Below are positions 50,934 through 56,946 of a stretch of 64,000 nt of DNA, one piece after another. Under the pieces are notes generated by a model, which was given only the letters and a program-made list of their open reading frames with translations, was not told the DNA's origin and searched no databases. A program made the translations under genes and the position numbers. Source of the DNA: Gemella sanguinis ATCC 700632 (GTDB lineage: Bacteria > Bacillota > Bacilli > Staphylococcales > Gemellaceae); assembly GCF_000701685.1 (NCBI RefSeq), contig NZ_JNJO01000002.1:124001-188000 (forward strand). Reading direction: 5' to 3'. Numbering within the stretch: the first letter of the stretch is position 1; each line of letters opens with the position of its first letter.

Positions 50934-51836
50934 TTAATTATTTTCTAACCATTCATTAAATTCTTCTATAAATTTAGCATAACTAGCTTTATTTTGGAAA
51001 CTTGGTATTTGCGCTAAAAATACTTGATTTGGTAATCTAGTTTGACCTTTTTTAGTAATTAATATAATAGCCTTTTGTTGAGATGCATTTTTAAACATCT
51101 CATCAGGTAAAGTAATGACCGCATTTAGATTAATATCTTCTTCTAAATACTTCTTAAAGTTATCTTCTAACTCAAGTACTTTTTTAGGTATTACTAATAT
51201 TCCTACCCCATTCTCATCAAGATAATTTGCTGCTTGCTCAATAAATAACAATGCATTTAAACTATATCCATCCGTACTGCATAGTTTGTAGTTTAAACTA
51301 TTATCTTCATCAGCATAATACCCAAAAGGAACATCACTAATTACTATATCTTGTTTTTTAATATTTAATGGCTTAAGAGCATCTTGGTTAATTATTCCAA
51401 CATTTGTTTCTAATAAATTAAAAATATTTTGTTGTAATCTCACATAATTGCTATCGACATCAACAGAAGTTATCTCTTTTTCACCTTTTACTAATGCAGC
51501 AATATTAATTAATAAACTACCACTTCCACTAGCTAAATCAGTTATAGAAACTTTCTTATCTCCATAGATACATTCTATTAAGTGACTTATATACATTGTA
51601 ATCACTTCAGGAGTAATATCATAGCTTGGATTATTTAATTCTTTTAAAGCTTTCAACAGCAGGAATTGATAAACTTTTCTAATTGTTTCTTTATCATAGT
51701 TATCTACTATATCAAAATAATCATCATCGTTTTCTAATGTTAAATACTTTATTAATCCTTCGAAATATAAACCTTCACCTTTTATTTTTTCTACTTCTTT
51801 ATCTATTTTAAAAAATAATTTCTCTAAATCTGACAT
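50934..51836 (-). CDS. ytxK: YtxK-family SAM-dependent methyltransferase-like protein
   Basis: 300 residues. A helical N-terminal part is followed by an N6-adenine methylase-like fold: SITDLASGSGSLLINIAALV (SAM site, about 98-117), and VISDVPFGYYADED in the place of the catalytic NPPY. That variant (D-x-P-x-GYY) is characteristic of the widespread YtxK proteins, which are not restriction-linked. I assign it to that family on this basis. The real substrate is unknown. It starts eight bases after the endonuclease stop and uses a GAGGAAC ribosome site overlapping it, so it is read with the restriction operon. Confidence 0.8.
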   Translation of the reverse strand: MSDLEKLFFKIDKEVEKIKGEGLYFEGLIKYLTLENDDDYFDIVDNYDKETIRKVYQFLLLKALKELNNPSYDITPEVITMYISHLIECIYGDKKVSITDLASGSGSLLINIAALVKGEKEITSVDVDSNYVRLQQNIFNLLETNVGIINQDALKPLNIKKQDIVISDVPFGYYADEDNSLNYKLCSTDGYSLNALLFIEQAANYLDENGVGILVIPKKVLELEDNFKKYLEEDINLNAVITLPDEMFKNASQQKAIILITKKGQTRLPNQVFLAQIPSFQNKASYAKFIEEFNEWLENN

Positions 51837-51844
51837 AGTTCCTC

Positions 51845-52750
51845 CTATTTAAATAATTCAAATAAATATCCCTTTTTTAACATCTCCAAGTTGAAAATAT
51901 TATCAATTTGGCTAAATGCTTCTGACAACGGAAGTCTTGCTGTATGCCATCCTTGTCCATCAGTTACCCAAGAAAAAATAACATTATCATTTGCAGTTTG
52001 TATTAATTTATTTAATTCTGCAAACTCACCTGATACAGACTTTAATTTACTTCCACCACCACCATAATAGTTTGTTTCAACAAGCCATACTTTATGTTTT
52101 TCCCCTGAATATACTGCAATATCAAAACGTCGTTCAGATTTATCTACTGGGACTTCTATACCCCAAGAGTTTTTTATAAATTTCGCTGTGGCTTGAGCTT
52201 TATAGGATAATCCATATTCCTCGCATACTATTTTTACATTACGTTCTAATATACTTTCCATAGTTGTGCCACTACGATTTTTTCGTGCATTACTATCTAA
52301 TCCAGCCTCTACCCCATATACATAATCAACCAAAGAACGGTTAGCATCTTTCTGTAAAAACTCTAGAAGTCCTGCTTCTTTCATAAAATCCACATATTTA
52401 TCTAATTGTTCAGTATCAATATTTTTAAAATCTAACTGATAAAAATTCATTATATCATCTTCATCAAAGAACAATATATCTAAAACTTTTTCTCTACTAG
52501 CTATTAAGCTAGGAATAGCCTTCAAGAGCTGCGGTTGCTTCTGAAATAGAACTAAAGCCTCATTATAAATATCTTCTTTTCCTATTAAATAATTTAAAGT
52601 ATGTAACTCTAATTCATATACTTTTGTTTCTCTTCTTACTTTATCCCAATTAACATAATATTCTGGTGTTCTATTGGTAACTGATAATGTAGAAAAGAAA
52701 TAATTTAATTTCTCCTCTATTGTACTGTCTAAATAATCTTTTAATATCAT
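51845..52750 (-). CDS. dpnB: DpnII/MboI-type restriction endonuclease (GATC)
   Basis: Cuts unmethylated GATC. 301 residues, close to R.DpnII. The family-specific block VWLVETNYYGGGGSKLKSVS (about 220-239) contains the catalytic Glu, and the segment ERRFDIAVYSGEKHKVWLVE supplies a D-x(n)-E-x-N form of the PD-(D/E)xK-like site. VTDGQGWHTARLPL closes the fold. The GATC specificity is supported by the two flanking methylases of matching type. It is the fourth gene of the operon, 13 bases after the 644-aa gene. Confidence 0.92.
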   Translation of the reverse strand: MILKDYLDSTIEEKLNYFFSTLSVTNRTPEYYVNWDKVRRETKVYELELHTLNYLIGKEDIYNEALVLFQKQPQLLKAIPSLIASREKVLDILFFDEDDIMNFYQLDFKNIDTEQLDKYVDFMKEAGLLEFLQKDANRSLVDYVYGVEAGLDSNARKNRSGTTMESILERNVKIVCEEYGLSYKAQATAKFIKNSWGIEVPVDKSERRFDIAVYSGEKHKVWLVETNYYGGGGSKLKSVSGEFAELNKLIQTANDNVIFSWVTDGQGWHTARLPLSEAFSQIDNIFNLEMLKKGYLFELFK

Positions 52751-52763
52751 TTCTTCTCTCCTT

Positions 52764-54698
52764 TTATTTCAGTTTTCTCCATTCTAATTCTTCATATATT
52801 TTCACAATATATGAAATTAAGATTATAATACTCATCAAATAATCCTCTTTATATTTATTTTCTTCATCATATATAGGACCACCATGTTGATATGTATTTC
52901 TTAATCCTCGACTATTAATAAACTGTTTCTCATTAAGTATATAATTCAAATAATTTGATTCATTCTCTGAAAATAATTTATTACTAAAGACCACCCAATT
53001 TAAACTTAAAAACTCTTCTATTATAGTTACTTCTAAATCCGATAAAAAAAGATAATTGACTTCTGAATAATAATATAATGATTTTAAGATCTCTATTTTC
53101 TTTTCATTTACAAAAGATAATCTATTACTCTCATTCTTTAATAATTTAGTATTAATAAGGATATCAATAGCACTCTTCTCACACCCTGTATATGCTGTAT
53201 AATATACATCTTCTTCTTTTAACAAATCATAAAAAGTATCTGCCGAACAATATTCAGTTATATAACTAATCTTTACTCCTGTGGAGAAAAGAAGCTGTAT
53301 TATATAGTTAATTTCTCTATTACGTGGATTAATCTTAATATATTTTCTTTTCAAATTACTTTGTAAAGAATCTAAAGATGGAACGTTTGATAAAGCATTA
53401 TACATTCCTTTATCTATTTCACCATATTTGCTAAATAGATAATATTGTTTTCTAATGTTTTCTTCAATTTTAAATAATATTGATGTTTTGTTATCTAACT
53501 CCTCATTTTCATAAGGAATGCTTATTCTAAGCCATTGTATTGCATAATTTTCCAAACTAAACTCTTCAAAAAACCATTTTATAAATCTTTCAATATTTAA
53601 TTTATTTTGATTGACAATTCTAATTAATAATTCTGTTTTTAATAAATAAAGTTTTTCTTTTATAAAAAAGAAGCTACCTGTCTTATATTCGTATTGTGAT
53701 TGGATATTTATTGATTTTTCCAAAGAACATATATCTATATTTTCAAAACAGATAGTGCTCAATAACCCTACATGATTAATCAAAGAGAACCTATATATAA
53801 CATAGTCTAATAAATCCTTATAACTCTTATTAACTTTAAAATAGTCTGAATCAACTAAATCACATAAAATACTATCATCATTTTTAAGTTGAAAATACGT
53901 TTTTTTATCGCTACAGATAACTATTTCTTGTTTAAATCCATTTTCTTTTATATCAAACTCTTGAGTTATCTGATTTATCCTCTTTAAGATTTTTAGTTTT
54001 ATATCTTCAGTGACACATATGTACTCTGAACCACTAAAATTCCCTAATCTATGAAGCAGTCTTTTTAAGTAATATAAATTTGCTTTTTTAGAATTTATAT
54101 ATTCTAACAGAAGCATGTTCCATTCTTTTTTAGTAATATTACTAGGGATATAGTAAATATTATTTCCTTTTTTAAAAGCATTATCCAACAGTAATTCAAT
54201 ACTTTTCTCAGACAATAAAAATAGTTTTTTTATCGAATTAGGATATTTTTTTACTAACATTTCTTTTTTCAACAAGACACTAACATGAATATTAGTTTTT
54301 TCACATATACGAAAAAATTCATCTTCCTTGATTTCATTAAAACATTTACATACAATCATTATATCTAATAGTTCTTCCGTATATAAATTCTTTTCTTTAA
54401 AAAATTTCTCCATAATACACATTAACTCTTTTTTTGTTTTTCTATTAAAAAATATATTAACTTCTTTTTTCATTAATGGTACATATGATATATACTTAGA
54501 CTTGTTTTCTTCGCTCCAATCATTGAAGAAAATCTGCTTTTCTATAAATACGGTTACTATTTTTAATTCAATAATATCCTCAATAGTTTTTTCTTGAATA
54601 GTTTTTTCTTCATAACTTTGCAATATAGAATCTATTCTTGGCTTGAAAAATCCTATAGATAAATCATTCTCACTATAAAACTTTATCCTATTTTTCAT
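52764..54698 (-). CDS. Unrecognised 644-aa protein with C-terminal RX4H (HEPN-like) motif, in the DpnII operon
   Basis: I do not recognise this protein. It is 644 residues, very rich in Lys, Glu, Ile and Tyr, mostly helical in appearance, with no membrane segment and no clear nuclease, ATPase or methylase motif. Near the C-terminus it has GLRNTYQHGGPIYDEEN (Arg600 and His605) followed by a hydrophobic helix YLMSIIILISYIVKIYEEL. The R-N-x-Y-x-H arrangement with a following helix is the signature seen in HEPN RNase domains. That is an inference from one motif. The gene lies between the second methylase (26 bases) and the endonuclease (13 bases). The start has no close ribosome site. Canonical DpnII operons have three genes, so this is an addition. 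Alternatives: a second nuclease, or an abortive-infection protein. Confidence 0.75.
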   Translation of the reverse strand: MKNRIKFYSENDLSIGFFKPRIDSILQSYEEKTIQEKTIEDIIELKIVTVFIEKQIFFNDWSEENKSKYISYVPLMKKEVNIFFNRKTKKELMCIMEKFFKEKNLYTEELLDIMIVCKCFNEIKEDEFFRICEKTNIHVSVLLKKEMLVKKYPNSIKKLFLLSEKSIELLLDNAFKKGNNIYYIPSNITKKEWNMLLLEYINSKKANLYYLKRLLHRLGNFSGSEYICVTEDIKLKILKRINQITQEFDIKENGFKQEIVICSDKKTYFQLKNDDSILCDLVDSDYFKVNKSYKDLLDYVIYRFSLINHVGLLSTICFENIDICSLEKSINIQSQYEYKTGSFFFIKEKLYLLKTELLIRIVNQNKLNIERFIKWFFEEFSLENYAIQWLRISIPYENEELDNKTSILFKIEENIRKQYYLFSKYGEIDKGMYNALSNVPSLDSLQSNLKRKYIKINPRNREINYIIQLLFSTGVKISYITEYCSADTFYDLLKEEDVYYTAYTGCEKSAIDILINTKLLKNESNRLSFVNEKKIEILKSLYYYSEVNYLFLSDLEVTIIEEFLSLNWVVFSNKLFSENESNYLNYILNEKQFINSRGLRNTYQHGGPIYDEENKYKEDYLMSIIILISYIVKIYEELEWRKLK

Positions 54699-54724
54699 AA
54701 AATTTTTTTTAGTATAAATTAAAT

Positions 54725-55480
54725 TTACTCCCTTTCTATTCTTTTTTTTGCAACTTCTAAATATTCCTCTTTAAAATCAATCCCTACAAATTTTCTCCCT
54801 AGTCTTTTTGCTACAACACCTGTTGTTCCACTTCCTACAAAAGGATCTAAAACGTAATCCCCTTTTTCTGTACTAGCCAAAATAATTCTTTCCAATAAAT
54901 ACTCAGGTTTTTGAGTAGGGTGTTTGCCTGCCCATTTTTCACTAATTTTTGTCAGAGGCCCTGTCCAAACATCTTTCATTTGCTTTCCATTATTTATATT
55001 TTTCATCAATTCATAATTATAATAATGTCTAGCATTCTTATCAACTTTTCTTGCCCATAGTATGGTTTCTGTTGAATGAGTAAAATATCTACACGATAAG
55101 TTTGGTGCTGGATTAGTTTTTTGCCATGTTATATTATTTAAAATTTTAAAACCTTCTTGCTCTAAAGCCATACCTACTGAATATATATTGTGCAGAGTTC
55201 CAGAAATCCATATCGTTCCATTCGGTTTTAATACCCTCTTAGCTTTTCTTATCCATTTACGATTGAAATTATGCTTTTCTTCTAGAGATGAAATTTTATC
55301 CCAATCTCCCTTATTTACTGAAACTACTTTACCTCCTGAATTTGAAAAGCCATCATTACTTAAAAAATATGGAGGATCAGCAAAAATCATATCAATACTT
55401 TCTCCTTTAATCTTCTCAATTACTTCAAAAGTATCACCTAACGCTAATGTACAATTATCCTTTTTATAATAAATATCCAT
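54725..55480 (-). CDS. dpnA: DpnA-type N6-adenine DNA methyltransferase (GATC)
   Basis: The second methylase of DpnII-type systems, which in S. pneumoniae also modifies single-stranded DNA during transformation. 251 residues, beta-class order: IFADPPYFLSNDG (about 33-45) comes first and LDPFVGSGTTGVVAKRLGR (about 215-233) last. The target-recognition region lies between, including AGKHPTQKPEYLL. It follows dpnM by nine bases. Its specificity for GATC comes from context and from similarity to DpnA. Confidence 0.92.
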   Translation of the reverse strand: MDIYYKKDNCTLALGDTFEVIEKIKGESIDMIFADPPYFLSNDGFSNSGGKVVSVNKGDWDKISSLEEKHNFNRKWIRKAKRVLKPNGTIWISGTLHNIYSVGMALEQEGFKILNNITWQKTNPAPNLSCRYFTHSTETILWARKVDKNARHYYNYELMKNINNGKQMKDVWTGPLTKISEKWAGKHPTQKPEYLLERIILASTEKGDYVLDPFVGSGTTGVVAKRLGRKFVGIDFKEEYLEVAKKRIERE

Positions 55481-55489
55481 ATTTCCTCC

Positions 55490-56353
<864 letters not shown>

Positions 56354-56480
56354 TTATCTAAATAATTTACTATCCTCTAACATTTTACCATTATAACTCA
56401 ATATTGTAAAAAGGTGAATATTAATTCTTTATAATTCTATCTATTTATTTCTAATTTTAAAGAAATAACAAACATGTAAA

Positions 56481-56507
56481 AAAGACGATACTTCTATCGC
56501 CTTCTTT
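56481..56507 (-). terminator. Terminator after the GNAT gene
   Basis: Minus strand stem AAGGCGATA / TATCGTCTT with loop GAAG, then six T. Confidence 0.8.
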
Positions 56508-56511
56508 GATT

Positions 56512-56946
56512 TTATAATTTCTTAATTAATCGCTTTTGAGTTTTATCGCATACATAGCCAATACTTTCATAAAACTTATGCGCATCTATGCGTCGAACAT
56601 TTGAATTAAGTCTAATATAACTAATATTATTCTTCAAAGCATAATCCTCTATAGAGCTCATAAGTTTTTTTCCTATTCCTTGCCCTTGAAAATTAGAATC
56701 CACTGCTAATCCAAGTATATTTAGACCAGTATCCATATACAAACTTTCATAGAGTTCAGCATGAACAAAACCAATAATTTTTCTTGTTTGTTCATTTTCA
56801 AAGCCTATTATAATATTATGTTTATTGTCATTAGTCAATTTTCTTATTTGTTTTTTTACAATATCTAAATTGACATCATATCCTAATTCAAAGTTACTAA
56901 TACTTTGAATTTCTTTGGCATCAAATATAGTAATATTCCTTAGCAT
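56512..56946 (-). CDS. GNAT-family acetyltransferase
   Basis: A 144-residue single GNAT domain. The acetyl-CoA motif is LAVDSNFQGQGIGKKLMSSI (about 76-95, with Q-G-Q-G-I-G), and the C-terminal strand is KFYESIGYVCDKTQKRLIKK. The substrate is unknown. It starts 18 bases after the selA stop and is the last gene of the selenium operon, which ends at a terminator. Nothing in the sequence ties it to selenium; it may have joined by position only. Confidence 0.85.
   Translation of the reverse strand: MLRNITIFDAKEIQSISNFELGYDVNLDIVKKQIRKLTNDNKHNIIIGFENEQTRKIIGFVHAELYESLYMDTGLNILGLAVDSNFQGQGIGKKLMSSIEDYALKNNISYIRLNSNVRRIDAHKFYESIGYVCDKTQKRLIKKL

Follow-up and report, generated by a model that had tools for sequence, protein, structure and literature searches.

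The window (the whole stretch of 64,000 nucleotides analysed here) carries on its minus strand four collinear genes in the order dpnM, dpnA, a 644-aa ORF and dpnB, followed by an N6_Mtase/YtxK-like gene. The product of dpnM (55490..56347, minus strand) is a Dam-family adenine methyltransferase (Pfam PF02086, MethyltransfD12, E 6.5e-72; TIGR00571), that of dpnA (54725..55480, minus strand) an N6_N4 adenine methyltransferase (Pfam PF01555, N6_N4_Mtase, E 1e-67) and that of dpnB (51845..52750, minus strand) the DpnII restriction endonuclease (Pfam PF04556, DpnII, E 6.3e-85), and these identities (Dam-type MTase, N6_N4 MTase and DpnII) were given by Pfam as well as PADLOC. The 644-aa ORF (52764..54698, minus strand) encodes a PDC-S56 family protein and candidate HEPN-type defence effector (PADLOC PDLC05039, E 2e-111), separated from dpnA by 26 nt and from dpnB by 13 nt. 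The ORF coordinates and the Pfam and PADLOC assignments confirmed the gene order and gaps given in a preliminary description of the locus. Its statement that canonical DpnII operons have no extra gene was borne out by LlaDCHI-type plasmids and one staphylococcal plasmid, where dpnA and dpnB overlap and no gene intervenes.

A strong, properly spaced Shine-Dalgarno sequence for dpnB (AAAGGAGA) was found just downstream of the 644-aa ORF. The ATG of the 644-aa ORF itself (upstream region at window 54699-54735) has no clear Shine-Dalgarno sequence close by; the nearest one upstream, AAAGGGAG, lies in the end of dpnA, at a distance of approximately 28 nt. Given the flush gaps, and the distant AAAGGGAG as opposed to the well-spaced AAAGGAGA of dpnB, the gene is probably transcribed together with the DpnII operon and may be weakly translated, as the Shine-Dalgarno placement hints at low translation.

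The operon (window 51837-56511) occupies a variable site between two anchors: the N6_Mtase/YtxK-like chromosomal gene (50934..51836, minus strand), carried by 14 of 14 relatives (all congeners searched), and a GNAT-type acetyltransferase gene (56512..56946, minus strand), which adjoins the ytxK-like gene in an operon-less congener. The site is empty in congeners G005 and G003, and holds AIPR/AbiU in G002 and a C5 methylase with a MutH-type enzyme in G007; the stretch between the GNAT and ytxK-like genes thus constitutes a variable defence site in the genus (window and congener loci L082, L125, L126 and L128). In the congener G008 (L082), the same operon is found at the same chromosomal site, encoding proteins 85% (DpnII), 95% (DpnA) and 82% (DpnM) identical to those of the window. 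The slot between its dpnA and dpnB is filled by a gene for a 187-aa PD-(D/E)XK protein (PDDEXK_11, E 8e-6), which shares 20 nt with dpnA and directly adjoins dpnB, and DNA similarity between the two genomes ends at the slot (window 52754-54739 versus approximately 590 bp in G008). As the slot holds a PD-(D/E)XK gene in G008 and the 644-aa gene here, the dpnA/dpnB junction has received a different extra gene in each of the two sister species. Relatives of the G008 nuclease pair with Dam methylases on plasmids of the lactobacillus family. Just upstream of the DpnII operon, the sister species additionally encodes an AbiLi-like AAA ATPase and an AbiLii/RloB-like protein (L082:2558-4494).

Family, conserved residues and predicted structure of the 644-aa protein

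The 644-aa protein is a full-length match to the PADLOC model PDC-S56 (371.7 bits), spanning residues 2-642 of the protein and positions 5-642 of the 649 in the profile, and the same model was matched by all 44 aligned homologues. By this profile match, the protein is a member of an already catalogued candidate family. The PDC families are "phage defence candidates" obtained through guilt-by-embedding and are mostly unvalidated, according to the account of the Payne et al. 2024 preprint given in PMC12988326; in the literature searched, we found no mention of PDC-S56 by name and no published anti-phage or RNase assay for it. No family match was found in Pfam or NCBIfam, and no PADLOC nuclease model was matched, in agreement with the preliminary description, which had seen no recognisable enzyme domain apart from the RNTYQH sequence. 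A Pfam Y2_Tnp match (E 0.13) was dismissed as noise, and PDB sequence searches with the 644-aa query and with a 44-sequence profile returned nothing useful. A phage-borne origin of the gene was likewise rejected, with no match among phage records or viral contigs.

HEPN RNases are defined by an Rx4-6H motif with a polar residue after the arginine, often accompanied by Ex3[KR] (PMC3710099). The RNTYQH sequence pointed out earlier was verified at R600-H605 (52884..52901, minus strand), where it reads as a predicted HEPN catalytic motif of the form RN-x-Y-x-H, and an Ex3[KR] signature is present at E413-x3-K417 (53448..53462, minus strand). In the 44-sequence alignment, R600, N601 and H605 are invariant (44/44) and Y603 is kept in 43 of 44, while position 413 is E or D in 44/44, K417 is found in 41/44 with one further R, and Q418 is found in 44/44. 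The complete set of invariant polar residues comprises Y106, E370, Q418, K452, Y453, S472, E580, Y583, N589, R600, N601, H605, Y620 and K633. A lone Rx4-6H is weak evidence, since approximately 32% of shuffles of the protein hold one (RNx3H occurs in approximately 1%), and a second Rx4-6H at R303 showed no conservation; RNxYxH is strong evidence because it is conserved across the homologues.

In AlphaFold2 models built with 44 sequences, mean pLDDT was 85.7 over the full length and 90.0 over residues 335-644. The N-terminal region (residues 1-249; 53952..54698, minus strand) is predicted to be all-helical and could be a sensor or protein-binding part; most of its blocks have a pLDDT of 74-95, with stretches of lower confidence beyond residue 210. 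The C-terminal half is predicted to be helical with a winged-helix-like segment of strands and helices at residues ~453-552 (53043..53342, minus strand), between the two HEPN signatures. Foldseek gave no match at E <= 0.001 for either the full or the C-terminal model, HEPN proteins included. With the full model, Foldseek and VIA listed only helical-repeat proteins, for the N-terminus and none of them significant. VIA-align with the C-terminal model listed winged-helix proteins for the segment at ~453-552 (Z up to 5.4, in the background range) and one Csm6 (Z 4.6 over 123 residues, also within background), and the fold searches with this model further listed designed helical filaments. The searches did not recognise a HEPN bundle, which counts neither for nor against such a fold.

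Among Pfam families, DUF4209 drew the largest number of weak matches from the aligned homologues (5/44, best E 0.021); it is classed as HEPN and occurs in R-M related operons (PMC3710099). The 644-aa protein itself gave no match to the DUF4209 model (PF13910) at E <= 1. When compared with a set of 12 DUF4209 proteins, PDC-S56 was found to have the patterns xPxxExxx[KR] and LRNxxxHG in common with them. The excised domain aligned to DUF4209 in hhalign with a local profile score of 26.4, and the highest score among 200 column shuffles was 17.7; the hhalign probability was low (2-26%) and the match resides mainly in the motif and the following (last) helix. DUF4209 proteins match another PADLOC candidate, PDC-S39. 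The signatures of the 644-aa protein are therefore closest to those of DUF4209, and a relationship to the DUF4209/PDC-S39 HEPN proteins is probable. The proposal of a HEPN-like C-terminus thus gained the invariant RNxYxH, the [D/E]x3K signature and the DUF4209-like pattern, but was left unproven by fold search and profile probability; judging from the conserved residues, the C-terminal domain is probably an RNA-cutting HEPN RNase domain.

Spread and genomic contexts of the homologues

Homologues were gathered from plasmids, whole genomes and GTDB genomes (52 loci), and the 44 that were aligned share 21-28% identity with the 644-aa protein. They are found in Bacillota, Bacteroidota, Proteobacteria (gammaproteobacteria) and Cloacimonadota, and the gene is rare and patchy, occurring in 3 of the 150 nearest relatives, in 6 of 399 genomes at class level and in 4 of 398 at phylum level, tallies that each count the window's own genome. 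PDC-S56 hence has a multi-phylum, patchy spread.

Among approximately 54 informative homologues, the 644-aa gene alone is a member of a DpnII operon. No DpnII or DpnM match was found near the others, with only distant DpnA-like MTases (29-30%) at one locus, and the DpnII operons examined in relatives and on plasmids were without a homologue. The homologues are instead embedded within or beside a range of defence genes, as expected for PDC-S56 (type I R-M, TIR, SRA and recombinase neighbours, and DpnII for the 644-aa gene). One forms part of a type I R-M locus (L083), directly upstream of hsdR, with hsdM and hsdS farther on, and another lies 27 nt after hsdS (L020); others adjoin a CAP12-like TIR protein (L013), follow a schlafen AlbA_2 gene (L053), have an HNH protein in their context (L063) or sit beside an SRA protein (L056). 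On Enterococcus plasmids, 32-36 nt separate the homologues from the preceding gene, a recombinase gene or another, and a TIR protein or an abortive-infection protein is encoded nearby. Judged by gene neighbourhood, these contexts form the pattern of a putative mobile single-gene defence unit.

Further details were seen at some of these loci. The type I R-M locus L083 also has a 175-aa gene (L083:10834-11361) that matches no family and is flanked by the PDC-S56 gene and an N6 methylase/specificity fusion. On two Enterococcus plasmids (L002 and L003), a serine recombinase gene ends 33-36 nt before the start of the PDC-S56 gene, and on the latter cargo genes, one of them for a TIR protein, are interleaved with several recombinase genes. 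DUF4209/PDC-S39 genes (L070 and L113-L120) are, on plasmids, similarly placed after a recombinase gene (L114) or before a DNA methyltransferase (L113), like PDC-S56.

The preliminary description had suggested a functional link to DpnII, with homologues always next to dpnA/dpnB, and had named homologues scattered in unrelated loci as evidence to the contrary; many unrelated contexts are what we found. Conserved co-occurrence with dpnM, dpnA and dpnB, as would be seen for a component of the DpnII R-M system, was not observed, and an obligate DpnII partner was rejected in view of the contexts of the approximately 54 homologues. On present evidence, the DpnII link of the 644-aa gene is incidental.

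Proposed role and comparison with known systems

The reading that we favour, with some confidence, is that the gene is an autonomous HEPN-RNase-type abortive-infection cargo inserted at the dpnA/dpnB junction, and therefore shares the transcription of the operon but does not belong to the restriction enzyme itself. It draws on the family membership, the invariance of the motif, the patchy spread, the lack of DpnII linkage and the alternative occupant of the slot in the sister species. The C-terminal helical domain would be a DUF4209-related HEPN RNase, in which R600 and H605 are metal-independent catalytic residues. The protein would stay inactive until its N-terminal helical half, its winged-helix segment or both sense a phage product, upon which it would cleave host or phage RNA and growth would stop, i.e. 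abortive infection. It would in this way complement DpnII by a second layer of defence that operates independently. The abortive-infection or RNase module proposed earlier is thus plausible through the candidate status of PDC-S56, with its activity a prediction only.

A non-catalytic HEPN-like or helical protein, e.g. an RNA- or DNA-binding regulator, an antitoxin or a scaffold, would accommodate the winged-helix-like segment, and some HEPN proteins are non-catalytic (PMC3710099). However, the motif R and H are invariant in 44/44, unlike in non-catalytic HEPN families, and the gene spreads independently of the R-M operon, making this role unlikely. The flush position in the operon could alternatively reflect a back-up module, in which a DpnII-coupled HEPN RNase is triggered by restriction failure or loss of GATC methylation. 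R-M-associated HEPN proteins have been proposed as suicidal or dormancy-inducing attackers of self RNA (PMC3710099), and homologues elsewhere have R-M neighbours too, one lying within a type I R-M locus and another following an hsdS gene. Yet, among the approximately 54 homologues, no other is in a DpnII operon, the DpnII operons of relatives and plasmids are without the gene, and the slot of the sister operon is filled by another gene; operon position is the one observation that speaks for a coupling to restriction failure, and we regard the back-up module as rather unlikely. A more elaborate form, in which PDC-S56 is a restriction-coupled suicide RNase whose helical sensor and winged helix would read unmethylated or cut DNA or the loss of DpnM/DpnA, firing when DpnII fails, and in which the junction would be an exchangeable slot for second-line effectors, seems improbable.

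The DpnII system might instead have a second enzyme that restricts or otherwise cleaves DNA; a second restriction enzyme had also been considered in the preliminary description. This idea fits the sister species, since a PD-(D/E)XK nuclease with Dam-paired plasmid relatives occupies exactly the same slot there, and the winged-helix segment of the 644-aa protein could bind DNA. For the 644-aa protein itself it fails: neither a nuclease domain nor a PD-(D/E)XK catalytic motif was found, with no nuclease match in Pfam, NCBIfam or PADLOC. The invariant polar residues form RNxYxH and not a PD-ExK set, the predicted secondary structure has no obvious mixed PD-(D/E)XK core, and a cognate methylase is absent beside most homologues. 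A second restriction enzyme was thus rejected as highly improbable.

With the autonomous cargo as the preferred reading, and the family itself already catalogued, the analysis provides a testable catalytic motif (R600/H605), the probable DUF4209/PDC-S39 relationship and a predicted domain plan for PDC-S56, together with an operon junction whose extra gene differs between two sister species. Should the HEPN activity be confirmed, a single mechanism would unite two catalogued candidates, PDC-S39 and PDC-S56.

Compared to DpnII/LlaDCHI type II R-M systems, the locus has dpnM, dpnA and dpnB in the canonical order, but 1.9 kb is inserted at the point where the canonical dpnA and dpnB overlap. The G008 operon is like it in site, in gene content (82-95% protein identity) and in the position of the extra gene, whereas the PDDEXK_11 nuclease encoded there is unrelated to the 644-aa protein. 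Within PDC-S56, the protein is divergent, with a best identity of approximately 28% to any homologue in the 44-sequence alignment, and is the only copy seen here within a DpnII operon. It differs from the DUF4209 (PF13910)/PDC-S39/C6orf70 HEPN family in going unrecognised by the Pfam model, in its N-terminal region (no DUF7380 match) and in having approximately 130 more residues, including the winged-helix segment, between the two HEPN signatures, but resembles it in a length of approximately 600 aa, in the common motif patterns and in its R-M and recombinase neighbours.
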